Source: Bergeyella zoohelcum ATCC 43767
GTDB taxonomy: Bacteria > Bacteroidota > Bacteroidia > Flavobacteriales > Weeksellaceae
Length of the DNA stretch: 64,000 bases
Assembly (NCBI RefSeq): GCF_000301075.1
Contig: NZ_JH932293.1
Span: forward strand, 915,755 to 979,754
Direction of reading: 5' to 3'
A program made the position numbers and the translations under genes. Below the pieces are notes generated by a model. The model was not told the origin of the DNA. It ran no database searches and saw nothing but the letters and a program-made list of their open reading frames with translations. This document shows, piece after piece, positions 1 to 47,097 of the stretch (its first letter is position 1; every line of letters begins with the position of its first letter).

Positions 1-98
1 CATTTCTGCACTGTGCTGATTCATTTCTGCACCATGCTGGTTCATTTCTGTACCGTGCTGGTTCATTTCTGCACTGTGCTGGTCCATTTCTGCACCAA
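1..98. repeat. 21-bp tandem repeat, about 4.6 units
   Basis: Units begin at 1, 22, 43, 64 and 85, each starting CATTTCTGCACY or a close variant; the last unit is partial. Neighbouring units differ at only a few positions. Because 21 is a multiple of three, the minus strand is open through the array and would read heptads of the type NQHGAEM, with an ATG at 87-85. The array could therefore be the start of a minus-strand gene running off the left edge, or an intergenic array like the 22-bp arrays at 40097 and 46127. The repeat itself is certain; its coding status is not. Confidence 0.85.
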
Positions 99-103
99 GA
101 GTT

Positions 104-165
104 GTACCATGTAAAAAGTATAAAGACTTTTGGCATATGGTTTCTGCCTATTGCTTATCGTCTTT
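104..165. repeat. Dispersed intergenic repeat copies
   Basis: Positions 104-132 match 27475-27504 with about two mismatches over 29 bp (shared core AAAGTATAAAGACTTTT). This is followed at 148-164 by CTGCCTATTGCTTATCG, a member of the 'gcctattgcttat' family also seen near 3957, 38940 and 40362. Such pieces are scattered in non-coding DNA across this window. Confidence 0.65.
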
Positions 166-3893: not shown

Positions 3894-3998
3894 TTAGAGA
3901 TTAGAAGCTAATGGCTAATCGCCATCCGCCAAAAGCTGGAAGCCTTTTTTTTAAAAAAGCCTATTGCCTAAAGCTTATTGCCTATCGCCTATTTTCCT
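3894..3998. repeat. Dispersed repeat tract (GCTAATCGCC.../CCTATTGCC...)
   Basis: Non-coding DNA made of short self-similar words such as GCTAATGGCTAATCGCC, GCCAAAAGC, GCCTATTGCC and GCCTATCGCC. The same words recur at 38784-38960, 40362-40402 and, remarkably, inside the ABC-F coding sequence near 9450-9490. It lies between the convergent ABC exporter and aldehyde dehydrogenase genes. Confidence 0.7.
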
Positions 3999-12460: not shown

Positions 12461-13966
12461 TTACTTTGCTTCTTTACTTTCTACTTTAACTTCTGGTGTA
12501 TCTCCGTTTTTAAAAACTGATATCCTTTTAATTTTATCAACAGGGTATTTATTGAGCTCTTCCCTTGAGATTTCTTTGCCATCAAGGGTGTATAGGACAT
12601 TTTTTGAGAAAAAGGTATTAGGATAGGTTACATGATTATGTGCTCCTATTTTATCTGAGGAAGACTTAGGTAAACCTTTCTTTTGAATAGCATTTACCAT
12701 ATCTTTTTCTATCTGTATCATACTTTTTTCCATCTTTTCCATGTTTTCTTCCATTTGCTTCATATCCTTTTCCATTTTTTCCATGGCTTTCTCCATCTGC
12801 TTCATATTCATGTCACTTTGTTCATATTGCTTTTTTTCTGCTTCATGCTTTTCAGCTTTTGCTTCAAGTTGTTTTTTCTCAGCTTCAAGTTGCTTTGCTC
12901 TTACTTCAATTTGCTTTCTTTCTGCTTCATATTGTTTTTTTGTTGCTTCATGTTGTTTAGCTTTTGCTTCATGTTGCTTTTTTTCCTTCAAAGTATCCAT
13001 TTTTTTTAGGAATGATTCGTTTTTTAACTCAGAAAATTGTGTTGAAGCCGATTTTTCCATCTCTTTTACAATGATTTTCGCTTTGGTGTTCAGGCGGATG
13101 ATTTCTTTGTTTTTTGCATTAACCAAATAAGCAAAACTGATGATGAAAAGAATAGGTAGTGCTAATAATTTTCTTAGGTAGCTGTGTTTCGTTTTTGTTT
13201 TTGTAATCATTTTTAATCTTTTTTTAATGTTAGACGATAATAATAAATGGGCGGCTTGCCACTGTGTTCCAGAGAAATGACTTGCTAAGAGCATCTGTGC
13301 AAAGGCTTGGGTATCTTTTTCTTTTACGGCTTGTTGGTCTGCCAAATATTCATGGATGAGTCCCATTTCTGTTCGGATGAGCCAAAAAAATGGATTACAC
13401 CAAAATACCGCACAGATTACTTCTAAAAAACATTTGTCCCAACTGTGTTTTTGCTCTATATGTACCATTTCGTGCTTTAGAATTTGCTGTCCTAAATCTG
13501 ACGAAAGAGGAATAGTTTTTTTCCAAAATAAATTTTTGAAGAATGAAAATGGAGCCTCTTCTAACTCGGTGAGGTAAAATGAAATTCCGTTCCACTGCTG
13601 GCATTCGTGATGTTTTTTTAGTTTCAAAATTTGCCATATTCCGATGAGAAATTTTATTGATAAAAACAAAGCTCCGAGGCCTAATCCTATAAAAACTATC
13701 GAAATAAATCTTGAGGACTCATTCATTACCGTGCTCAGCTGGGCAGGCTGTAGTGCATCAAAAAGCACCAAAACTTCTTGGCTTACTTCTATAGTGAAAT
13801 AGTCAATTTTTAGCCATGGTAATAGCAAGGAGACCAGCACTGAAGCAAGGAGATAAAATCTATTGTAATGGTGGAAAGTCTTATCTTTTAAAAAAATGAA
13901 ATAGTAGCCAAACAAAATGGCTGAGCAAATGATAACTTTTAGTATATGGAGAGCGAGGGTTTCCAT
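12461..13966 (-). CDS. BlaR1-like M56 family metallopeptidase
   Basis: A 501-residue membrane sensor/protease. N-terminal membrane helices at about 8-26, 36-52 and 88-112 are followed by the zinc-protease motif HEMVH (165-169) with a downstream Glu in LIHEYLADQ, then another helix at about 268-283. This is the BlaR1/MecR1 M56 arrangement, but there is no penicillin-binding sensor domain. Instead, residues about 330-425 form a long coiled coil of heptads (EAxxKQx, then KQMEKxM), encoded by 21-bp repeats. A 65-residue tail (LYTLDGKEIS...) follows. It overlaps the BlaI-like stop by one base (TGATG). Family knowledge suggests that on sensing envelope stress it cleaves the repressor encoded next door. 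Confidence 0.88.
   Translation of the reverse strand: METLALHILKVIICSAILFGYYFIFLKDKTFHHYNRFYLLASVLVSLLLPWLKIDYFTIEVSQEVLVLFDALQPAQLSTVMNESSRFISIVFIGLGLGALFLSIKFLIGIWQILKLKKHHECQQWNGISFYLTELEEAPFSFFKNLFWKKTIPLSSDLGQQILKHEMVHIEQKHSWDKCFLEVICAVFWCNPFFWLIRTEMGLIHEYLADQQAVKEKDTQAFAQMLLASHFSGTQWQAAHLLLSSNIKKRLKMITKTKTKHSYLRKLLALPILFIISFAYLVNAKNKEIIRLNTKAKIIVKEMEKSASTQFSELKNESFLKKMDTLKEKKQHEAKAKQHEATKKQYEAERKQIEVRAKQLEAEKKQLEAKAEKHEAEKKQYEQSDMNMKQMEKAMEKMEKDMKQMEENMEKMEKSMIQIEKDMVNAIQKKGLPKSSSDKIGAHNHVTYPNTFFSKNVLYTLDGKEISREELNKYPVDKIKRISVFKNGDTPEVKVESKEAK
12692..12979 (-). repeat. Coding 21-bp repeats specifying heptads
   Basis: Within the BlaR1-like gene the codons for residues about 333-382 form seven consecutive 21-bp units (EAKAKQH, EATKKQY, EAERKQI and so on). 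They are followed by less regular Met/Glu/Lys heptads to about residue 425. Unit number could vary between strains by slippage without breaking the frame. Confidence 0.8.
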
Positions 13967-19073: not shown

Positions 19074-19411
19074 ATAAATTTTCTAGAAAAATCATTTTTT
19101 AGAATCGAAAATTATTTTTTCTATGAACTCACATCGTAGGATAGTAAAGCTACCTCCATTTATTGGATGAAAGTGTCCATTTAAGAAGTGAAAAAATAAA
19201 GTACAATTACTCTTTTTGTTAAGAATCTTTAAATAAGGTTATTACAAGTGTTGTGTTTAATCAAGTTTTAGTGTTTTCGGTACTTTGTTGAAGCGATTTC
19301 GAATTTTCTTAAAGTTAAAAAATTAAGCAAAATCAAAAGTTTAATACGAATTCAGAGAAAAAAATAGGTGACTTTTCTTTTGTCCCTCGCTTTCGTTTTT
19401 CTAAAAAATAA
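19074..19411. other. Spacer with a short 21-bp direct repeat
   Basis: No gene is visible in about 340 bp. CCATTTA occurs at 19156 and 19177, exactly 21 bp apart, with weaker similarity on both sides (19151-19190), like a two-unit remnant of the 21-22 bp arrays seen elsewhere. The rest is AT-rich without clear structure. Confidence 0.4.
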
Positions 19412-24105: not shown

Positions 24106-24138
24106 TGATGCATTGGGAGAAAAGCTGAGTACATTGGG
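24106..24138. repeat. Two-unit 21-bp direct repeat
   Basis: CATTGGG occurs at 24111-24117 and 24132-24138, 21 bp apart, within partly similar surroundings (TGATGCATTGGG and TGAGTACATTGGG). It resembles the longer 21-22 bp arrays in the window. Confidence 0.5.
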
Positions 24139-27474: not shown

Positions 27475-27504
27475 TGTACAATGTACAAAGTATAAAGACT
27501 TTTA
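27475..27504. repeat. Second copy of 29-bp dispersed repeat
   Basis: Matches 104-132 with about two mismatches; the shared core is AAAGTATAAAGACTTTT. The two copies are about 27 kb apart in unrelated intergenic regions. Confidence 0.7.
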
Positions 27505-27547
27505 GTTTGTGGTGTACTGTTACTTTTAGGAATACAAAGCATGAATT

Positions 27548-28031
27548 AGGAAAAACAAAAATCTATGTGGTGTAAACCATGCACAAGCTGGGAAATTAAA
27601 AATTCATTTAGGAAAAACAAAAATCCATGTGGTGTAAACCATGCACAAGCTGGGAAATTAAAAATTCATCTAGGAAAAACAAAAATCCATGTGGTGTAAA
27701 CCATGCACAAGCTGGGAAATTAAAAATTCATCTAGGAAAAACAAAAATCCATGTGGTGTAAACCATGCACAAGCTGGGAAATTAAAAATTCATCTAGGAA
27801 AAACAAAAATCCATGTGGTGTAAACCATGCACAAGCTGGGAAATTAAAAATCCTATATAGGAAAAATAAAAATCCATGTGGTGTAAACAATGCACAAGCT
27901 GGGAAATTAAAAATTCATTTGGGAAAAACAAAAATCCATGTGGTGTAAACCATGCACAAGCTGGGAAATTAAAAATCCTATATAGGAAAAACAAAAATCC
28001 ATCTGGTGTAAACCATGCACAAGCTAGGAAG
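27548..28031. repeat. Minisatellite: eight 62/63-bp tandem units
   Basis: Units start at 27548, 27610, 27672, 27734, 27796, 27859, 27921 and 27984. Each runs AGGAAAAACAAAAATCCATG, then GTGGTGTAAACCATGCACAA, then GCTGGGAAATTAAAAAT and a short variable end. Copies are nearly identical apart from an alternate end (TCCTATAT in place of TCATCT), which adds one base. There are no unique spacers, so it is not a CRISPR array. It fills the gap between the sigma factor gene and pcrA; the outer copies are the most diverged. Open frames through it are accidental, since the frame rotates with each 62-bp unit. Confidence 0.93.
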
Positions 28032-38783: not shown

Positions 38784-38999
38784 TTGCTAAAAGGCTAAAA
38801 TGGCTATAAAGTTATAAAGCTAAATGCTAATCGCCAAAAGCTAATAACTATAAGCGAATAGCCATCCGCCAAAAGCCTACCCCTACTGTTTAATAATCTT
38901 TTTAATTTAATTCATAATGAAAGTAAGGTCATAGAGTTAAAAGCTTACTGCTTATAGCTTACAGCCTACTGCTTAATAATCTTTTTAATTTAATTCACA
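38784..38999. repeat. Repeat-filled gap with duplicated leader
   Basis: This 216-bp gap inside the efflux cluster holds words such as GCTAATCGCCAAAAGC, AGCGAATAGCCATCCGCC and TGCTTATAGCTTACAGCC. It also contains a near-perfect 40-bp direct repeat at 38882-38921 and 38965-39004, offset by 83 bp, that duplicates the leader and start codon of the adaptor gene. The upstream copy's ATG opens a frame of only five codons. Confidence 0.8.
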
Positions 39000-40049
39000 A
39001 TGAAAAAAATAATCATCACCGTTTTAGTATTGGCTCTTGTAATTGCGGGAGCAGTCATGGTTCTTAACAAGAATAAGGCAAAAAATGAAGCACAAGTAGC
39101 TGCCGTGGCAGAGAAAAATCCTAGTATATCCGTTCGTACCGCTGTGGTACAGCAAGAAATGATGAATGGAGATTTTTCTGTTAATGGTAACTTCTTACCC
39201 GCTACGGCAGGGGTAGTAGCTGCAGAAACTGGAGGGCAAGTGGTCGCTCTTTATGTGAAAGAAGGTAGCCGCGTAAATACGGGGCAAGTCATCGCGAAGC
39301 TGAAAGGAGATAAGCAAGATGTAGGTACTAATAATGCCAGAATCGCTTTAGAACAAGCTGTTTCGGCATTAAATAGATATGAAGAAGCGTATAAAACGGG
39401 AGGAGTTACCGCACTTCAACTAGACCAAGCGAGATTTCAAGTGAAACAAGCCAAAATGCAATTACAGTCGGCTCAGTTGAATTCTGGAGATACTACCGTG
39501 CGTTCTAAAATTAGTGGCGTGGTGAATAGAAAAAACATTGAAGTAGGAACGGTGGTAGGAGCTGGAACCACCATCGTAGAAGTGGTGAACATTGGTTCGC
39601 TAAAACTTCGTGTAGAGGTAGATGAAAACATGGTTACACAGCTTTCCGTAGGGCAAACGGTGAAGGTAAAACCATCGGTATTAGATGGGGAGATTAATGG
39701 TACCATTACCTTTATCGCACCGGCTGCAACGGGAGCAATGAAATTTCCTGTGGAAATTACTGTAAATAATGACCTCAATACCCTAAAAGCAGGAATGTAC
39801 GCTACAGCTCATTTTGGAGGAAAATCATCTTCTGTACTCACAGTGCCCAGAGAGGCTTTCGTAGGCTCGGTCAGTGAGAATAAAATATTTGTGAATAGAA
39901 ATGGCGTAGCTCAGCAGGTTACTGTACAGAGTGGTGTGAATTACGGGGATAAGGTAGAAATCATCTCAGGGCTGAAAGCGGGAGATATCGTCATCACATC
40001 GGGACAAATTAACCTAACGAATGGAGCGAAAGTAAGTGTATTGAAATAA
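39000..40049 (+). CDS. RND efflux periplasmic adaptor (MFP)
   Basis: A 349-residue membrane fusion protein. An N-terminal membrane anchor (residues 3-23) is followed by the lipoyl half-motif GGQVVALYVKEGSRVNTGQVIAKL, quoted here as GGQVVALYVKEGSRV. A short helical hairpin comes next, then the second lipoyl half with SGVVNRKNIEVGTVV, and beta-barrel and membrane-proximal domains. It connects the inner membrane pump to the TolC-type channel. The start codon is ATG at 39000, within the downstream copy of a 40-bp duplicated leader. Confidence 0.93.
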   Translation: MKKIIITVLVLALVIAGAVMVLNKNKAKNEAQVAAVAEKNPSISVRTAVVQQEMMNGDFSVNGNFLPATAGVVAAETGGQVVALYVKEGSRVNTGQVIAKLKGDKQDVGTNNARIALEQAVSALNRYEEAYKTGGVTALQLDQARFQVKQAKMQLQSAQLNSGDTTVRSKISGVVNRKNIEVGTVVGAGTTIVEVVNIGSLKLRVEVDENMVTQLSVGQTVKVKPSVLDGEINGTITFIAPAATGAMKFPVEITVNNDLNTLKAGMYATAHFGGKSSSVLTVPREAFVGSVSENKIFVNRNGVAQQVTVQSGVNYGDKVEIISGLKAGDIVITSGQINLTNGAKVSVLK

Positions 40050-40096
40050 TACCCAAAAGGGAAGAGATATTATACCGAGAGGGGAATAAATTTTCG

Positions 40097-40206
40097 TCCT
40101 GATGAAAATTTTGCTACATCCCGACGAAAATTTTATTGCGTCCCGACGAAAATTTTACTGCGTCCCGATGAAAATTAAACTTCCCTTTGATGAAGGTTTT
40201 GTTTCG
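40097..40206. repeat. 22-bp tandem array, about five units
   Basis: Units start at 40097, 40119, 40141, 40163 and 40185 with the core TCCCGACGAAAATTTT; the outer units are degenerate. Period 22 means it is not coding. It lies between the adaptor and permease genes. Confidence 0.85.
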
Positions 40207-40451
40207 TATTTATCTTTTTGAAATTTAGCCTAAATCCACTTAACTTTTAATCACAAAGAAAAACAAATTGAGCTATTGAAATATAAAAAGTGGAACAAAG
40301 GCACAAGTGTTTAGCAAAGAAAGACAAGGAATGAAGCATTGGAGACCTTCGGTATATAGCCTCCTGCTTCCTGCCTATTGCTTACGGCTTATAGCATTTT
40401 TATTGCCCAAAAAGTCTAAACAAGTTCTAAAATTAAATTAAATAACATATA
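40207..40451. repeat. Repeat-rich leader of the RND permease gene
   Basis: Contains a tract resembling another flavobacterial intergenic repeat (ATCACAAAGAAAAACAAATT and ACAAAGGCACAAGTG at about 40250-40310). At 40362-40402 a member of the 'gcctattgcttacggcttatagc' family follows. No gene is visible. It ends with AATAACATATAATG at the RND start. Confidence 0.6.
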
Positions 40452-43400
40452 ATGAAATTAGCAGAAATATCCATAAAAAGACCCAGTTTGGTGATTGTGA
40501 TGCTTGCAGCACTCATCATTGGAGGGCTTTTCAGTTATAAGAGTCTCAGCTATGAGCTGATTCCTAAAATGGACATTAAGGTGCTTAGTATCAGTACTAT
40601 TTATCCTGGTGCAGGACCTTCAGAGGTGGAAAGCACCGTGTCCAAAAAAATAGAAGATGCTGTATCATCATTAGAAAATGTGAAAAAAATACAGGCGAAA
40701 TCTTATGAGGGACTTTCAGTAGTGATTATTACTTTGACCAATGAGGCAAATGTAGATAATTCCCTTAATGATGCCCAAAGGAAGATTAATGCCATTCGTT
40801 CAGATTTACCAGATGATGCCAAAGAACCGTCTATTTCTAAATTTTCCCTTTCGGATTTACCTGTTGCCACAATGGGGGTTACGGGTAATTTATCCGATAG
40901 TGAGTTGTATGATTTGGTAGACCAAAAAATCCAGCCCGCTTTTGCTCGTACTTCGGGGGTGGCTCAGGTGAATATAGTGGGTGGAAGAGAACGAGAAATC
41001 CGCGTGAGCATAGACCAAGATAAGGCGGAAGGTTATGGGCTCTCTATACCACAAATTCAGCAAATTATTCAGGCTTCCAATATGGAATTTCCTACAGGGA
41101 ACCTTAAGACTCTGAATAATACTACTTTGCTAAGGCTATCTGGAAACATTTCTTCCGTAGAGCAGCTCAGAAACTTGACCATCGCTTCCCAAAACGGAAT
41201 CAATATTTTACTTTCCGATGTAGCCGATGTACAAGACACCCAAAAAGAGGCTTCTAAAATAGCGAGAATCAATAGCCAAAATACGCTTTTACTTCAGGTG
41301 CAAAAACAATCGGAGGCGAATGCGGTAGAAGTTTCTTCATTGATTCAGGCTAAAATAAAGGAAATAGAAAAGCAATATGAAAAACAAGGTCTGAAAATTA
41401 GTTTGGCTGATGATACTTCTATATTTACATTAGAGGCAGCTAATTCAGTGATGAAAGACTTATTTATCGCCATTGGTTTGGTGGCATTTGTGATGCTGTT
41501 CTTCTTACATTCTTTTAGAAATGCCTTGATTGTGATGGTAGCCATTCCTTCTTCCTTGATAGCTACTTTCATCGGAATGATGATTTTTGGCTATACGCTG
41601 AATTTAATGTCGCTCTTGGCACTTTCCCTCGTGGTAGGTATCTTGGTAGATGATGCCATTGTGGTGATAGAGAATATTCACAGACATATGGAGATGGGCA
41701 AAAATAAATACCGTGCGGCGTATGATGGTGCATCGGAGATTGGTTTTACTGTAACGGCTATTACCATGGTGATAGTAGTGGTATTCCTCCCCATAGCGAT
41801 GAGCTCAGGAATGGTAGCTAATATTATCCGTCAGTTTGCGGTGGTGGTAGTGATTTCTACTTTATTATCTTTATTGGTATCTTTTACGGTAGTGCCTTGG
41901 CTTTTCTCTAGATTTGGGAAATTAGAGCATATTAGTCCTAATAATTTCTTTGGTAAGATTATTTATGCATTTGAGAGACAATTGGACAAATTCACCCATT
42001 GGATGTCTAATTTACTGAAGTGGGCATTGAATAATAAACTCAAAACCTTTATTGTTACTTTCGTTCTTTTTGCTTCTTCTTTCGCTCTATTGTTCTTGGG
42101 CTACATCGGTGGAGATTTTTTCCCATCTACGGAACGAAGCAAGTTTTTGATTCAGTTTGAGCTGAATAAAGATGCGTCATTGGAACAGACCAATTTTGCT
42201 ACTCAGAAAGCTGAAGCCTTTATTAATCAAAAACCAGAAGTAATTCAGACTATCTCTACCGTAGGACAATCCAGCTCGGGAATGGGAGCGTCTCAGGCTA
42301 CTGCATACAAATCTGAAATTACCGTAGAAATGGTAAATAAAGATGAGCGAGCGGAAAAATCTACCAAAGTATATGCAGCAAAACTGAAAAGAGAGCTAGA
42401 AAAAGAACTGGCAGGGGTGAAAATAAAAATAGTACCAATGGGCATCATGGGGGCAGAACAAGCACCACTCCAGATGAATATCACAGGAAATACACTAGAA
42501 GATGTGATGAAATATGCCCGAGAAGCGGAAGCCCTCCTAAAGACTGTGCCAGGCTCCAGCGAGGTTGAGCTGAGTGTGGAAGATGGTAACCCAGAGATTG
42601 CCATTCAGGTAGATAGGGATAAAATGACGGCACTAGGACTGAATGTAGTTACTGTGGGGCAAACGCTCAGAACAGCTTTCAGTGGAAATACGGATTCTAA
42701 ATTCCGTACAGGGAATAATGAATACGATATCAATGTGATTTTGGACGATATTTTCCGTACCGATATAGACAATGTAAGAAATATTACTTTCCTGAATCCG
42801 CAAGGAATGAAAGTGAAATTGGCTCAGTTTGCTGATGTTAATTATGCTTCTGGACCATCGCTTTTAGAAAGGTATGACCGTTCGCCATCGGTTACGGTAA
42901 ATTCCCAAGTAGTAGGTAGAACGGGAGGTGATGTAGCGAACGAATGGACTGCTAAGCTAGAAAAAGTACAAAAACCTGCAGGCGTAGAATGGGCATGGGG
43001 TGGTAATATGGAGAACCAGAGTGAAGGCTTTGGTACTTTGGGAGTAGCAATGCTGGCCGCCTTGATGCTAGTGTATATGGTGATGGTGATTTTGTACAAT
43101 GACTTTATTCGTCCATTCATCGTGATGTTTTCCATTCCTTTATCTTTCATTGGGGCATTGTGGGGCTTGGCACTTACCAATCAATCGCTGAATATTTTTA
43201 CCATCTTGGGGATTATTATGTTGGTAGGATTGGTAGCTAAAAACGCAATTCTTTTGGTAGATTTTGCGAACCACCGATTAGACGAAGGCGAAACCATATT
43301 TAATGCATTGGTACAGGCGAACCACGCTCGTCTCCGTCCGATTTTGATGACCACCATAGCGATGGTTATCGGGATGTTGCCCATCGCATTGGCAGACGGC

Positions 43401-43601
43401 GAAGCCTCATCTATGAATAATGGTCTTGCCATTGTTATCATTGGTGGACTTATTTCATCTTTATTCCTTACCCTTATCATTGTACCTGTGGTGTATATGA
43501 TTTTCGTAAGCCTAGAGGAGCGTTTCTTTGGGCATAAAACCATCGATGTAGAGGCAAAAATGAAAGAAGAATATGAACATAAAGAAGTGGAGATGAGGTA
43601 A
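40452..43601 (+). CDS. RND efflux permease (HAE-1 type)
   Basis: A 1049-residue inner membrane proton antiporter of normal length, with 12 membrane helices and two large periplasmic loops. Clear family marks: RPSLVIVMLAALIIGG at the start, VSTIYPGAGPSEVES-type porter sequence (here STIYPGAGPSEVE), the proton-relay helix VGILVDDAIVVIENIHRHME with two Asp, and the C-terminal VGLVAKNAILLVDFAN. It works with the adaptor and the TolC-type protein encoded upstream. Substrate cannot be read from sequence. It is closed by a strong terminator. Confidence 0.95.
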   Translation: MKLAEISIKRPSLVIVMLAALIIGGLFSYKSLSYELIPKMDIKVLSISTIYPGAGPSEVESTVSKKIEDAVSSLENVKKIQAKSYEGLSVVIITLTNEANVDNSLNDAQRKINAIRSDLPDDAKEPSISKFSLSDLPVATMGVTGNLSDSELYDLVDQKIQPAFARTSGVAQVNIVGGREREIRVSIDQDKAEGYGLSIPQIQQIIQASNMEFPTGNLKTLNNTTLLRLSGNISSVEQLRNLTIASQNGINILLSDVADVQDTQKEASKIARINSQNTLLLQVQKQSEANAVEVSSLIQAKIKEIEKQYEKQGLKISLADDTSIFTLEAANSVMKDLFIAIGLVAFVMLFFLHSFRNALIVMVAIPSSLIATFIGMMIFGYTLNLMSLLALSLVVGILVDDAIVVIENIHRHMEMGKNKYRAAYDGASEIGFTVTAITMVIVVVFLPIAMSSGMVANIIRQFAVVVVISTLLSLLVSFTVVPWLFSRFGKLEHISPNNFFGKIIYAFERQLDKFTHWMSNLLKWALNNKLKTFIVTFVLFASSFALLFLGYIGGDFFPSTERSKFLIQFELNKDASLEQTNFATQKAEAFINQKPEVIQTISTVGQSSSGMGASQATAYKSEITVEMVNKDERAEKSTKVYAAKLKRELEKELAGVKIKIVPMGIMGAEQAPLQMNITGNTLEDVMKYAREAEALLKTVPGSSEVELSVEDGNPEIAIQVDRDKMTALGLNVVTVGQTLRTAFSGNTDSKFRTGNNEYDINVILDDIFRTDIDNVRNITFLNPQGMKVKLAQFADVNYASGPSLLERYDRSPSVTVNSQVVGRTGGDVANEWTAKLEKVQKPAGVEWAWGGNMENQSEGFGTLGVAMLAALMLVYMVMVILYNDFIRPFIVMFSIPLSFIGALWGLALTNQSLNIFTILGIIMLVGLVAKNAILLVDFANHRLDEGETIFNALVQANHARLRPILMTTIAMVIGMLPIALADGEASSMNNGLAIVIIGGLISSLFLTLIIVPVVYMIFVSLEERFFGHKTIDVEAKMKEEYEHKEVEMR

Positions 43602-43627
43602 GAGGCGGTATAAAATATTATAATAGT

Positions 43628-43655
43628 AAAGGGACGGATTATATCCGTCCCTTTT
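43628..43655. terminator. Bidirectional terminator between RND and malic enzyme genes
   Basis: AAAGGGACGGAT pairs perfectly with its reverse complement around a 4-base loop and is followed by Ts. It lies between convergent genes. Confidence 0.9.
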
Positions 43656-43714
43656 ATTGATATATGAATTAGGAAGTTAAGTATAACTACCATGAAAAAG
43701 CAAAGCTAAAGAAA

Positions 43715-45994
43715 CTATTGTTTTTCTCTTTTTTGAGCATCTAAAACGGCAATGGTAGCCAAATTCACTATTTCATCTACACTTGCACGCATCTGAAGTA
43801 CATGGACAGGCTGTTTTAGTCCCATAACAATAGGACCAATGACTTCTGTATTTCCCATTCCTCTCAATATTTTATAAGAAATATTCGCACTTTCTAGATT
43901 AGGAAAAATAAAAGTATTGGCAGGTTTTTTTCCTAATTTACTGAACGGATAGTCTGCCAGATGGTCTTCATTCATGGCGAAATCCGGCTGTACCTCTCCA
44001 TCTACTATCATCTTAGGATATTTTTCATGGAGTATTTTCACAGCTTTTGCCATCTTTTTAGATATTTCAGAGTTTCCAGAGAAATTTTCATAAGAAAGCA
44101 TGGCTATTCTTGGCTGTACTCCGAAGGTCTTTACGGTAAGTTCTGACATTTTAGCGATGCTTACCAACTCTTCCGCAGAAGGATTCGGCTGAATAGAGGC
44201 ATCAGCAAAGAAGTATTGTTTCTTATCGCTCAGCACCATTACCATAGAAGCTATTTTTTCTACGCCTTGTTCTTTTTCTATGATTTCCATTACCGGTTTT
44301 ATCACCGTTCTATAGTTTTTAGAATATCCTATGAGCAGTGCATCTGTATCTCCATGTTTCAGCATCAGTGGCCCGAAATAATCTCTCTGTCTTACTAATC
44401 TTTTGGCAATATATTCATTAATCCCTTTACGCTGACGAAGTTTCCAGAGGGTTTCGCGGTATTCCACTCTTTTATCATTCATTTCATCACTATTAGGGTC
44501 TATGATAGGCACATCTATTTCTATTCCGTATTTCTGCATTTGGGCTTTCACGAATTCTTTTTCGCCTAATAAAATAGGATGAGCAATGCCTTCTTCATAT
44601 AAAATCTGAGCCGCCTTCAGTACATTGTATTCCTCAGCATTTCCTAAAGTAATTCTCTTTGGATTTGCTTTAGCACGGTTTTGCATCATACGGATGAGCT
44701 TTTGGTCTCTACCCATTCTATCGAGGAGTTGAGTTTCATATTGCTCAAAATCAGTAATCGGTTTACCTGCAATGCCACTTTCCATTGCTGCTTTTGCTAC
44801 TGCTATGGATACTTTGGTAATCAATCTATTATCAAAAGGCTTCGGAATAAAATACTCTCTTCCGAAAGAAAGATTTTTTAAGTTATAGGCAAGCATTACC
44901 ATTTCTGGAACAGGCTCTTTGGCGAGTTCTGCAATGGCCTTTACCGCTGCCAGCTTCATCTCTTCATTAATTCCAGAAGCCTGAACATCTAAAGCACCAC
45001 GGAAGATATAAGGAAAACCGAGTACATTGTTCACCTGATTAGGGAAATCACTGCGTCCAGTGGCCATGATGACATCTTTTCTGGTCTTCACCGCAAGATC
45101 ATAATTAATTTCTGGGTCAGGATTTGCCAGGCCAAAGACCACAGGGTTTTCATTCATCTTAAGGAGCATTTCTGGTGAAAGAACATCTCCTTTAGACAAG
45201 CCCACGAAAACATCGGCACCTATCAGTGCTTCTTCCAGCGTTTGTGCAGAGGTAGTAGAGATAAACTCCACTTTTTCAGGCGTTAGATTCGTTCTTTTTT
45301 CATTGATAACCCCTTTACTATCGCACATGATAATATTTTCCCTTTTCAGCCCGAGAGCGATATAGAGCTTGGTACAAGCAATAGCTGCTGCCCCTGCACC
45401 ATTGACCACCATTTTTACCTTACCGATGTCTTTTCCTGCAATTTCCAAAGCATTGAGCAACGCCGCAGCGGAAATAATGGCCGTACCGTGCTGGTCATCA
45501 TGCATGAGTGGGATATCCAATTCTTCTTTCAATCTTTGTTCTATATAGAAAGCCTCTGGTGCTTTGATGTCCTCCAGATTAATTCCTCCAAAAGTAGGGG
45601 CGATGCCTTTTACTATTTCAATGAATTTATCAGGGTCTTTTTCATCTATTTCTATATCAAAAACATTAATATCTGCGAAGATTTTAAATAGAAGCCCCTT
45701 TCCTTCCATCACGGGTTTAGAGGCTTCTGCCCCAATGTCTCCTAGCCCTAATACGGCAGTTCCGTTAGAAATTACAGCTACTAAATTTCCTTTTCCTGTA
45801 TATTCGTATGCAGTTTTAGGGTCTTTTTCTATTTCCAAACAAGGAATGGCTACCCCTGGAGAATAGGCCAAAGATAAATCTCTTGCCGAAGCGTGAGGTT
45901 TAGAAGGCACTACTACTATTTTCCCCTTAGGCTCTGCCTGATGGTATTGTAATGCGGCTTTATTGAAAGCCTTTTCATCTCTTTTATTGTTCAT
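43715..45994 (-). CDS. maeB: NADP-dependent malic enzyme with phosphotransacetylase domain
   Basis: A 759-residue two-domain enzyme of the MaeB type. Residues about 1-410 are malic enzyme: DLSLAYSPGVAIPC, GTAVLGLGDIGA and the dinucleotide site VNGAGAAAIAC. Residues about 430-755 are a phosphotransacetylase-like domain (NAEEYNVLKAAQILYEEG, and PIVMGLKQPVHVLQ at the end), which in this class is regulatory rather than catalytic. It converts malate to pyruvate with NADPH formation. It stands alone on the minus strand. Confidence 0.95.
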   Translation of the reverse strand: MNNKRDEKAFNKAALQYHQAEPKGKIVVVPSKPHASARDLSLAYSPGVAIPCLEIEKDPKTAYEYTGKGNLVAVISNGTAVLGLGDIGAEASKPVMEGKGLLFKIFADINVFDIEIDEKDPDKFIEIVKGIAPTFGGINLEDIKAPEAFYIEQRLKEELDIPLMHDDQHGTAIISAAALLNALEIAGKDIGKVKMVVNGAGAAAIACTKLYIALGLKRENIIMCDSKGVINEKRTNLTPEKVEFISTTSAQTLEEALIGADVFVGLSKGDVLSPEMLLKMNENPVVFGLANPDPEINYDLAVKTRKDVIMATGRSDFPNQVNNVLGFPYIFRGALDVQASGINEEMKLAAVKAIAELAKEPVPEMVMLAYNLKNLSFGREYFIPKPFDNRLITKVSIAVAKAAMESGIAGKPITDFEQYETQLLDRMGRDQKLIRMMQNRAKANPKRITLGNAEEYNVLKAAQILYEEGIAHPILLGEKEFVKAQMQKYGIEIDVPIIDPNSDEMNDKRVEYRETLWKLRQRKGINEYIAKRLVRQRDYFGPLMLKHGDTDALLIGYSKNYRTVIKPVMEIIEKEQGVEKIASMVMVLSDKKQYFFADASIQPNPSAEELVSIAKMSELTVKTFGVQPRIAMLSYENFSGNSEISKKMAKAVKILHEKYPKMIVDGEVQPDFAMNEDHLADYPFSKLGKKPANTFIFPNLESANISYKILRGMGNTEVIGPIVMGLKQPVHVLQMRASVDEIVNLATIAVLDAQKREKQ

Positions 45995-46126
45995 AATTTT
46001 GAGTGATAAATAAGAGGAGTAAATGATGCCCCTCTGGTAATTGTAATTTATTATTCTGATAAGTATAAGGATTTTTCCTTTTTTATCCTATTTGAGTTAT
46101 TATTAAAAGCAGGCGAGATTTTTGGG

Positions 46127-46214
46127 AAAACCTAGTGTACTTTTGAGTAAAACCTAGTGTACTTTTGGACAAAACCTAGCATACTTTTGAATAAAACCTA
46201 GCGTGCTTTTTAGG
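46127..46214. repeat. 22-bp tandem array, four units
   Basis: Units start at 46127, 46149, 46171 and 46193, with core AAAACCTAGTGTACTTTTG and a few substitutions. It lies in the 250-bp gap between malic enzyme and the kinase-like gene. It has no sequence relation to the 22-bp array at 40097, only the same period. Confidence 0.88.
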
Positions 46215-46245: not shown

Positions 46246-47097
46246 TTATAAGCCGAGTTTTTTCCTATGATAGTCCACCAAACCATCTATCGGTTTCTGA
46301 ATGATATTTCCTATTTTCATTCCCATTTCTTGAGCTACTTCCCGAAGCAAATCCGAATAAATCATCGCGATAGAACCTACACAATGAATCTCCAAAGTGC
46401 TACTCTCAGGATAAGCAGACGCCTGAAAATAGAGGAAATGCTTAAACTCTTCTTTAATAAGCTGCTGCACGAATGCGTGTGCTTTGTGCTTGACCAAAAA
46501 ACCATTAAACGATGCCAAAAAAGCATTGGCTTTAGGCTGATGATATAATCTCTGTATGAGTTCCTCTATGGTTAATCCATATTCAGAAGCGAAAGCCTCA
46601 TGTAAATCTTGAGGTAATTTTTTCATAAAGAAATTTTTTACCAAAGCTTTCCCTAGTGCAGAGCCACTGCCTTCATCTCCCATAATAAATGCCAATGACG
46701 GAATATCTAAACGAATCTTTTCTCCATCAAAAAAACAAATATTAGAGCCTGTACCTAAAATGGCTACCAATGCAGGGCTTCCATTATACACCGCATAGGC
46801 TGCTCCCAGCATATCTTCCTTTACGGTAATGTCTGCCATAGGAAATACGCCCTCTAATGCTTCTGCCAGTACTTTCTGATTCTTTTCTATACCACATCCA
46901 GAACCATAGAAATAAATGCTTTTTACCTCTGAAACGGGAAAAGTGTAGTCTTGATTCTGTAGTACTTCAATGATTTGATTTTTAGAAATATGGTTAGGAT
47001 TTAACCCTGTGGTTTCCCATCTTGCCGTTTCTTTTCCTTCAGGCGTAATGAGCACCCAATCACATTTAGTAGAACCTCCATCTATAATGGCTATCAT
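46246..47097 (-). CDS. BadF/BadG-type sugar kinase, GlcNAc kinase-like
   Basis: A 283-residue ASKHA-fold kinase. The phosphate-1 motif is AIIDGGSTKCDWVL at the N-terminus, phosphate-2 is VAILGTGSNICFF, and FIMGDEGSGSALGKALV is the stretch typical of bacterial N-acetylglucosamine kinase-like members of the BadF/BadG/BcrA/BcrD family. It probably phosphorylates an amino sugar released in cell-wall recycling, which is inference. It has no operon partner. Confidence 0.87.
   Translation of the reverse strand: MIAIIDGGSTKCDWVLITPEGKETARWETTGLNPNHISKNQIIEVLQNQDYTFPVSEVKSIYFYGSGCGIEKNQKVLAEALEGVFPMADITVKEDMLGAAYAVYNGSPALVAILGTGSNICFFDGEKIRLDIPSLAFIMGDEGSGSALGKALVKNFFMKKLPQDLHEAFASEYGLTIEELIQRLYHQPKANAFLASFNGFLVKHKAHAFVQQLIKEEFKHFLYFQASAYPESSTLEIHCVGSIAMIYSDLLREVAQEMGMKIGNIIQKPIDGLVDYHRKKLGL

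Follow-up and report, generated by a model that had tools for sequence, protein, structure and literature searches.

In centromere-like arrays, direct repeats follow one another in tandem at a short, fixed step and are bound side by side by ribbon-helix-helix proteins; REP/BIME elements and the dRS3 repeats of Neisseria are short intergenic palindromes present in many copies. The subject here is a set of tandem arrays found in a 64,000-nt stretch of Bergeyella zoohelcum ATCC 43767 (the window; G000:C1:915755-979754 of a 2.33-Mb genome in 7 contigs), whose units are unrelated in sequence but repeat every 21 to 22 bp, and which resemble centromere-like arrays in being tandem direct repeats at a fixed short step. 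The closest described system is BrickBuilt of Porphyromonas gingivalis, presented in parts of its source paper as a 23-nt tandem array with a leader and a tail at 19 intergenic sites of one strain, alongside reports of 41-, 23-, and 22-nt arrays in that species (PMC4596501). As far as that account goes, both systems belong to Bacteroidota and have tandem units of 22 to 23 nt (41 being about 2 × 20.5), intergenic positions, many loci, imperfect copies, and variable copy number; the present genome differs in holding several unrelated unit families. BrickBuilt was the only close description that we found in the open-licence PubMed Central literature on repeats, and we found no paper there on a common step across unrelated families.

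We found that the 21- to 22-bp step is overrepresented well beyond the window, which makes the observation wider than the preliminary description of this DNA had claimed. The three main arrays of that description (1-98, 40097-40206, and 46127-46214), designated F1, F2, and F3 here, proved real by both Tandem Repeats Finder (TRF) and a lag scan, with lag scores of 58 (F1, 1-96), 44 (F2), and 46 (F3), far over the threshold of 14, a score that shuffled sequence reaches about 0.4 times per lag in 105 kb of noncoding DNA. With F4, which was missing from the earlier list, the window arrays are as follows.

Positions 1-96, plus strand: F1 array, unit CATTTCTGCACCGTGCTGGTT, 21 bp, 4.6 copies, 88% match (TRF).
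Positions 40095-40194, plus strand: F2 array, unit CGTCCCGACGAAAATTTTACTG, 22 bp, about 4.5 units (TRF gives 40095-40176 and 3.7 copies; by lag scan it runs on to 40194).
Positions 46119-46210, minus strand: F3 array, 22 bp, 4.2 copies (TRF, lag scan).
Positions 27547-28030, strand unassigned: F4 array, 62 bp, 7.8 copies, noncoding (TRF, lag scan).

The F1 array forms the right edge of a 1,410-base N run whose left edge carries the same array (C1:914250-914344), so it is probably longer than 1-96. On the minus strand, the F3 unit is a partly decayed AAAACC-N6-GGTTTT plus 4 variable bases, and by our own reading the 62-bp unit of F4 comprises about three subunits of 20.7 bp. The consensus units of F1 to F4 resemble one another no more than shuffled units do, and on that basis kinship among the unit families was rejected. 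The earlier statement that the sequences share nothing thus holds between families; it fails genome-wide, since each window array has relatives elsewhere in the genome. F1 occurs at several loci. F2 occurs at three (the window, C1:1850733-1850942, and C1:1004401-1004460), and its pattern was found in no other genome among 197 genomes of the family. F3 has a better-kept relative at C1:1798119-1798202 and a similar array in L128 (8123-8229); its pattern matched 2 of the 197 family genomes (this one and G134, of another genus) and no viral contig. By contrast with the main arrays, the short remnants proposed at 19151-19190, 24106-24138, and 1064-1135 are noise, because their lag-21 scores (8, 7, and 8) do not rise above their surroundings; lag 23 scores higher (9) near the second, as does lag 24 (10) near the third.

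The lag survey covered 40 stretches of 20 kb beside the window (34% of the genome; 764 kb, with 104,750 noncoding bases counted), 80 loci of named relatives, 20 to 400 kb per sampled relative, and 150 kb of Escherichia coli. Five stretches of this genome (L081, L082, L083, L111, and L121) and one of G001 (L148) had been chosen for their hits and do not enter the lag spectra or surveys; some of them were used in array-by-array tests. The unmasked spectrum of the genome peaks at lags 7, 14, 21, 22, 42, 63, and 84, but it is inflated, because N runs add 2 to every lag up to about 86 and because 7-bp repeats contribute harmonics: a best step of 21 was such a harmonic in 6 of 12 segments of this genome and 7 of 17 in named relatives. 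A recount with N, runs, and 7/8-bp repeats masked supersedes these counts. Segments with a strong self-match in this genome then number 3 at lag 20, 7 at 21, 5 at 22, 2 at 23, 5 at 41, 10 at 42, 3 at 44, 8 at 63, and 9 at 84, and the remaining lags from 11 to 61 have 0 to 2 each. Named relatives gave 9 at lag 21, none at 22, 6 at 42, 5 at 63, and 4 at 84, along with 6 at lag 11; other members of the family, order, and class gave 3 at 20, 4 at 21, 4 at 22, and 7 at 42, along with 5 at lag 11. There were none at 20 to 23 in six genomes of other classes, and one at 21 in E. coli.

Expressed as the share of noncoding DNA at lags 20-23, 41, 42, 62, and 63 versus eight control lags, masked coverage was 3.16% versus 0.00% in this genome, 2.27% versus 0.00% in G001, 1.05% versus 0.03% in named relatives, and 1.06% versus 0.16% in other class members; the corresponding values were 0.00% versus 0.27% in the six genomes of other classes and 0.00% versus 0.38% in E. 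coli. The TRF survey, made without arrays that hold N runs, found 53 arrays in this genome: 18 with steps of 20 to 23 bp, 7 at 41 to 44 or 61 to 66, 15 at 7 or 14, 7 at 8 or 16, 3 at other steps from 12 to 19, 3 over 44, and none at 24 to 40. Steps of 20 to 23 bp made up 3 of 13 arrays in G001, 5 of 7 in G002, 5 of 16 in G032, 12 of 56 at the named loci, none of 7 in the six genomes of other classes, and 1 of 2 in E. coli; two arrays of G085 in this survey look coding-like by eye. The genome-wide autocorrelation proposed in the preliminary description, run on about one-third of the genome plus relatives, thus reveals an excess at 21 to 22 bp.

F1 shows how closely the step is kept. A pattern search for its core, (C)ATTTCTG repeated every 21 bp, matched 15 of the 197 family genomes in 3 of 33 genera (this genome, G001, and 13 of genus g75), and the reversed control pattern matched one. 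At several g75 loci the unit is TTGCGGAAC-CATTTCTG plus four variable bases, the first half differing among loci. One locus, with 6 to 9 units, is kept in five species of one genus; the gene before it looks, by its translation, like one for dihydrolipoyl dehydrogenase. With the step free to fall anywhere from 15 to 27 and up to two mismatches allowed per core, core-to-core steps were exactly 21 in 126 of 126 cases. Neighboring units nonetheless differ by 18% (488 substitutions over 129 pairs), and ten pairwise comparisons of the flank at the shared locus gave 17 indels and 346 substitutions, a ratio that predicts about 24 indels in F1. In 19 arrays of other families, we counted 12 indels and 608 mismatches to consensus where the flank ratio predicts 29.8, or about 2.5 times fewer indels per mismatch than in that one set of intergenic flanks; this result is weaker, because detection is biased toward in-register arrays and a single locus serves as the yardstick. 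Support for constraint on the step is good in F1 and moderate elsewhere. The earlier suggestion that spacing is what matters gains from F1 substitutions without indels, from the indel-poor arrays of other families, and from a peak that survives masking.

We tentatively favor the explanation that these are helically phased, DNA-level, multisite arrays for protein loading that work like plasmid iterons. By this analogy, a short motif (in F1 and F3, about 17 to 18 bp, with about 4 bp that vary more freely) would repeat every two helical turns, and copies of one putative DNA-binding protein may load cooperatively next to each other along a single face of the helix, in the way that initiators occupy iterons. 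Separate families would be read by separate proteins, which would account for a common step without a common sequence. Arrays vary in unit number and occupy many intergenic sites, selection would remove most step-breaking indels, and the arrays may bring some benefit to the cell. The observations behind this explanation are the step excess, the multilocus families, the exact spacing of F1 with diverging letters, the lack of a coding sign in F1, the lack of a fixed strand, and the presence of arrays in an operon gap that measures about 24 bp in most relatives.

Several points weigh against protein loading. The way in which F1 loci were located fixed roughly 30 to 36 of the 126 steps in advance, and the indel yardstick is a single 188- to 200-bp flank in five related species, compared in nonindependent pairs. 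Indels do occur outside F1 (four in L031, three in L074, two in L003, and one each in L121, L075, and L141), and by TRF the indel/mismatch ratio of 20- to 23-bp arrays (0.091) is not clearly below that of 9- to 19-bp arrays (0.120); it is 0.044 for arrays at 41-44/62-63 and 0.333 for other steps over 23 bp. The higher-order units, of 62 and 41 bp, point to a mixture of 20- and 21-bp steps, the split into subunits being our reading. Some class relatives lack 20- to 23-bp arrays (0 of 3 in each of G004, G021, and G029). One F1 array of about 10 units (L235, G220:C14) lies within a 635-amino-acid open frame, which its 21-bp units keep. Moreover, 26 of 33 arrays miss P < 0.05 for dyad symmetry, and families were counted more than once in that test.

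The other seven of the 33 reach P < 0.05 (combined P, 3e-5), which counts in favor of protein loading. A universal dyad was rejected on this count. Dyads are clearest in the F3 type and in L126 (AATTCCCTAGCTAGGGAATT, next unit AATTTCCTAACTAGGAAATT, with a two-sided change). The palindromic unit of L126 recalls REP/BIME and dRS3; the arrays differ from those elements in being head to tail at one step, with dyads in only the minority just given. Conservation is uneven among columns beyond chance in 10 of 25 arrays, a figure inflated by the shared ancestry of the units.

A bolder generalization, which we regard as speculative and on balance doubtful, is that Bacteroidia chromosomes carry a general class of such arrays, in which unrelated motifs repeat every 21 to 22 bp and each is served by its own cooperatively loading protein. 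They would be a chromosomal counterpart of iterons and centromere arrays, selected for register over letters, and new arrays would colonize intergenic gaps even within operons. If register rather than sequence is kept, tools built on sequence conservation would miss this class of bacterial DNA-protein platforms. Changing the step with the letters kept would be a direct test, for which there are concrete loci in several genera.

The arrays may instead be selfish or neutral minisatellites, some of them carried on elements like miniature inverted-repeat transposable elements (like BrickBuilt), which spread, vary in length through slippage and recombination, and are of no use to the cell; we consider this possible but somewhat unlikely. 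Intergenic positions, many loci, and variable unit numbers are as in BrickBuilt, and different g75 loci have similar left ends that include an inverted unit. By eye, an inverted unit starts the array at some g75 loci and in G001 and matches the local unit, as seen in three inverted/local pairs (GTTCCGCAA/TTGCGGAAC, GTCCGGCAA/TTGCCGGAC, and AATCAACCGCA/TGCGGTTGATT); at other loci no inverted unit is recognizable by eye at the array start, and the left end alone appears common to g75 F1 arrays at different loci. Two F1 copies share about 40 bp past the array on one side among the matches listed. F2 and F3 copies, on the other hand, align within the array only, in either orientation (again among the matches listed), and as alignment stops at the array ends, a shared mobile element with leader and tail was rejected for these two families, which sets them apart from BrickBuilt as described. 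We noticed no terminal repeats around the arrays, without a systematic search. Nor is an inverted unit general in flanks: among 39 arrays, z exceeded 3 in only 5 of 76 flanks, and of these, L086, L118, and L123 match better in direct orientation (that is, the array continues), leaving L048 and L225, the latter with a 25-bp perfect inverted copy. Neutral arrays should also drift out of register, whereas F1 stays in register, and drift leaves the step of 20 to 23 bp unexplained. A dispersed piece of about 30 to 45 bp (..GTATAAAGTACAAAGACTTTTGGCATA..) lies beside several unrelated arrays (window 103-131 and 27475-27503, L111 9972-10002, and L084 13553-13593).

A mutational process with a fixed step could write 21- to 22-bp duplications, with the arrays as its by-product, an alternative already raised in the preliminary description. 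Unrelated sequences with one step are what such a process would leave, and template-driven synthesis of tandem repeats is reported in bacteria for DRT10 (PMC12632851). Expanded gaps in one operon, the efflux operon that surrounds F2, also speak for it.

Positions 39000-40049, plus strand: gene for an HlyD-type membrane fusion protein (Pfam PF16576, PF13437), upstream of the F2 array.
Positions 40050-40451, strand unassigned: expanded operon gap of 402 bp between the HlyD-type and RND genes, holding the F2 array.
Positions 40452-43601, plus strand: gene for an AcrB-type RND transporter (Pfam PF00873, E = 2e-248), downstream of the F2 array.

The RND protein has at most 73% identity to its best named matches (Cruoricaptor, Kaistella, Bergeyella, Chryseobacterium, and others). 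In 74 relatives plus this genome, the best RND match is preceded by a gap with a median length of 24 bp; 56 of the 75 gaps measure at most 60 bp, and one exceeds 1 kb, with no near gene found. Six of the 80 loci were left out of this count, four for a short upstream side (L036, L038, L049, and L077) and two because no gene was found upstream (L041 and L061). Repeats of 7 bp or 20 to 23 bp occupy 8 of 18 expanded gaps (61 to 1,000 bp), in several lineages, versus 0.025 expected from shuffles; they occur in 2 of 55 short, nonempty gaps. In L003, a metagenome-assembled genome labeled Bergeyella zoohelcum, an unrelated array with a 21-bp step fills 221 of the 285 bp of the gap, and its sequence finds no further match in the 1.5-Mb assembly. 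Together with F2, this means that two lineages have unrelated arrays, with nearly equal step, in one operon gap. Degenerate 7-bp (and 8/16-bp) tandem repeats also occur in many intergenic gaps of this genome and its relatives (in the window at 120-180, 3956-3993, 38942-38975, and 40340-40400); they adjoin some 21- to 22-bp arrays and fill several expanded operon gaps of other lineages.

Two-copy tandem duplications, however, lie mostly at 9 to 15 bp and show no peak at 20 to 22 bp (0 of 26 in this genome and 2 of 105 in other Bacteroidia), which argues against a fixed-step generator. Among arrays of at least 2.6 copies, 12 of 38 in this genome have steps of 20 to 23 bp, plus 7 at 41, 42, 62, and 63; the count is 13 of 75 at 21 to 22 bp in other Bacteroidia and 0 of 7 in other classes. 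From the peak in the longer arrays and its absence at two copies, the step seems to be favored as arrays grow or persist, not as duplications arise, a tendency seen in small counts. The divergence of F1 units within an array at unchanged step also speaks against such a process, which we consider improbable.

Were the arrays instead transcribed, they could act as RNA-level elements that fold into chains of hairpins. Left ends of F1 form long hairpins (z = −2.9 in L241, −4.2 in L238, and −5.7 in L245), and L121 (z = −5.1 and −4.4) and L126 (z = −4.9) fold strongly; window positions 1-98 (z = −2.7 and −3.9) and 40090-40200 (z = −2.4 and −1.3) have negative z, and in the three cases given above an inverted unit matches its local unit by eye. 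The window F3 array, by contrast, is not more stably folded than its shuffles (z = 1.9 and 0.5). Rfam models run against 113 kb from six sources returned three tRNAs and nothing else, and known Rfam RNAs were rejected as candidates. Genes flanking 17 F1 loci are both forward at 7 (five of these being one locus), both reverse at 5, divergent at 3, and convergent at 1, and one locus lies inside an open frame. The strand of F1 is thus not fixed overall relative to flanking genes, which argues for action as DNA rather than RNA and makes folded transcripts an unlikely explanation.

Plasmid iterons are the model for the protein loading that we favor, and the arrays might be thought to be iterons themselves, captured from Rep_3 plasmids or serving as decoys (incompatibility-type sites). 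Contig C3 (16.3 kb) carries the only Rep_3 match of this genome, with five identical 21-bp repeats just upstream (L291 4206-4313); its Rep has 64.6% identity to Rep of Riemerella anatipestifer plasmids. Among 15 named Bacteroidota Rep_3 plasmids (including four Riemerella relatives), compared with repeats inside rep genes left out, the best step was 21 in 12 and 22 in two, one of the latter weak and tied with 21; the remaining plasmid, whose gene is at the record edge, shows no step. What look like initiator-binding arrays of the phylum thus use the step of the chromosomal arrays, direct repeats about two helical turns apart. By eye, the iterons mostly share a TTTTATAAG-like core at the 21-bp step.

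The two nevertheless differ in placement and sequence, the present arrays being chromosomal and at many loci. F1 to F4 units match the rep region of C3 no better than shuffles do, and when the 15 iteron sets were compared by BLAST with 22 chromosomal arrays, the one match was a 15-nt AT-rich stretch immediately adjoining an array. Of the 15 F1 genomes, 14 lack Rep_3 and 1 has it; among the 182 other family genomes, 18 have it. Two F1 arrays and the F2 array had no match in a plasmid collection searched without F3, and one F1 array had none among phages. Rep genes or origins are likewise absent around the window arrays, whose neighbors are efflux, metabolic, and ATPase-like genes, those of F3 being the following.

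Positions 43715-45994, minus strand: gene with malic enzyme and phosphate acetyl/butyryl transferase domains (Pfam PF00390, PF03949, PF01515), on one side of the F3 array.
Positions 46246-47097, minus strand: BadF/BadG-type ATPase-like gene (Pfam PF01869, 31.0 bits, just under the cutoff of 31.5), on the other side.

Because sequence matches are lacking and Rep_3 does not co-occur with F1, we do not class the chromosomal arrays as iterons; captured iterons were rejected, and we regard them as very unlikely. A viral origin of F1 was also rejected: its pattern occurs in 21 viral contigs, we saw an F1 unit in none, and 19 of the 21 matches sit in open frames at least 150 codons long.

Least probable of all, and rejected as a general cause with L235 as the exception, are protein-coding heptad repeats (7 codons making 21 bp): coding repeats of this kind exist (an open reading frame at window positions 12695-12992, missing from the earlier list, has a period of 21/42/63 bp), four frames are open in the window F1 array and one in the window F2 array, and an F1 reverse frame with only 5 stops stays open in 14 of 19 arrays, but none of the frames is open throughout the 19, variation is not concentrated at third codon positions (in genus g75 their information content in that reverse frame is no lower, by our arithmetic), 22-bp arrays cannot hold a frame, and the window F3 array has no open frame.

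Chromosomal N runs occur at L083 8345-9754, L086 14317-14416, and L095 12493-12592. Those in L083 and L086 are inside 21-bp arrays, so array lengths in the assembly may be underestimates; arrays may account for some unresolved assembly gaps of the group, and changes in unit number could act as strain markers. The arrays are distinct from clustered regularly interspaced short palindromic repeats (CRISPR), in which unrelated spacers of about 26 bp or more separate the repeats, as their units abut with about 0 to 9 variable bases. Two other loci look like CRISPR arrays (L129 2630-3821 and L127 1701-4247), with periods of 64 to 65 bp and 66 bp and repeat-like pieces. Long pure (AC)n/(GT)n runs of 24 to 40 copies, which seem unusual for a bacterium, were seen at L082 12422-12501, L083 1445-1492, and L084 15816-15869, and L096 12752-13661 holds a 452-bp tandem duplication (96% match) in coding sequence.

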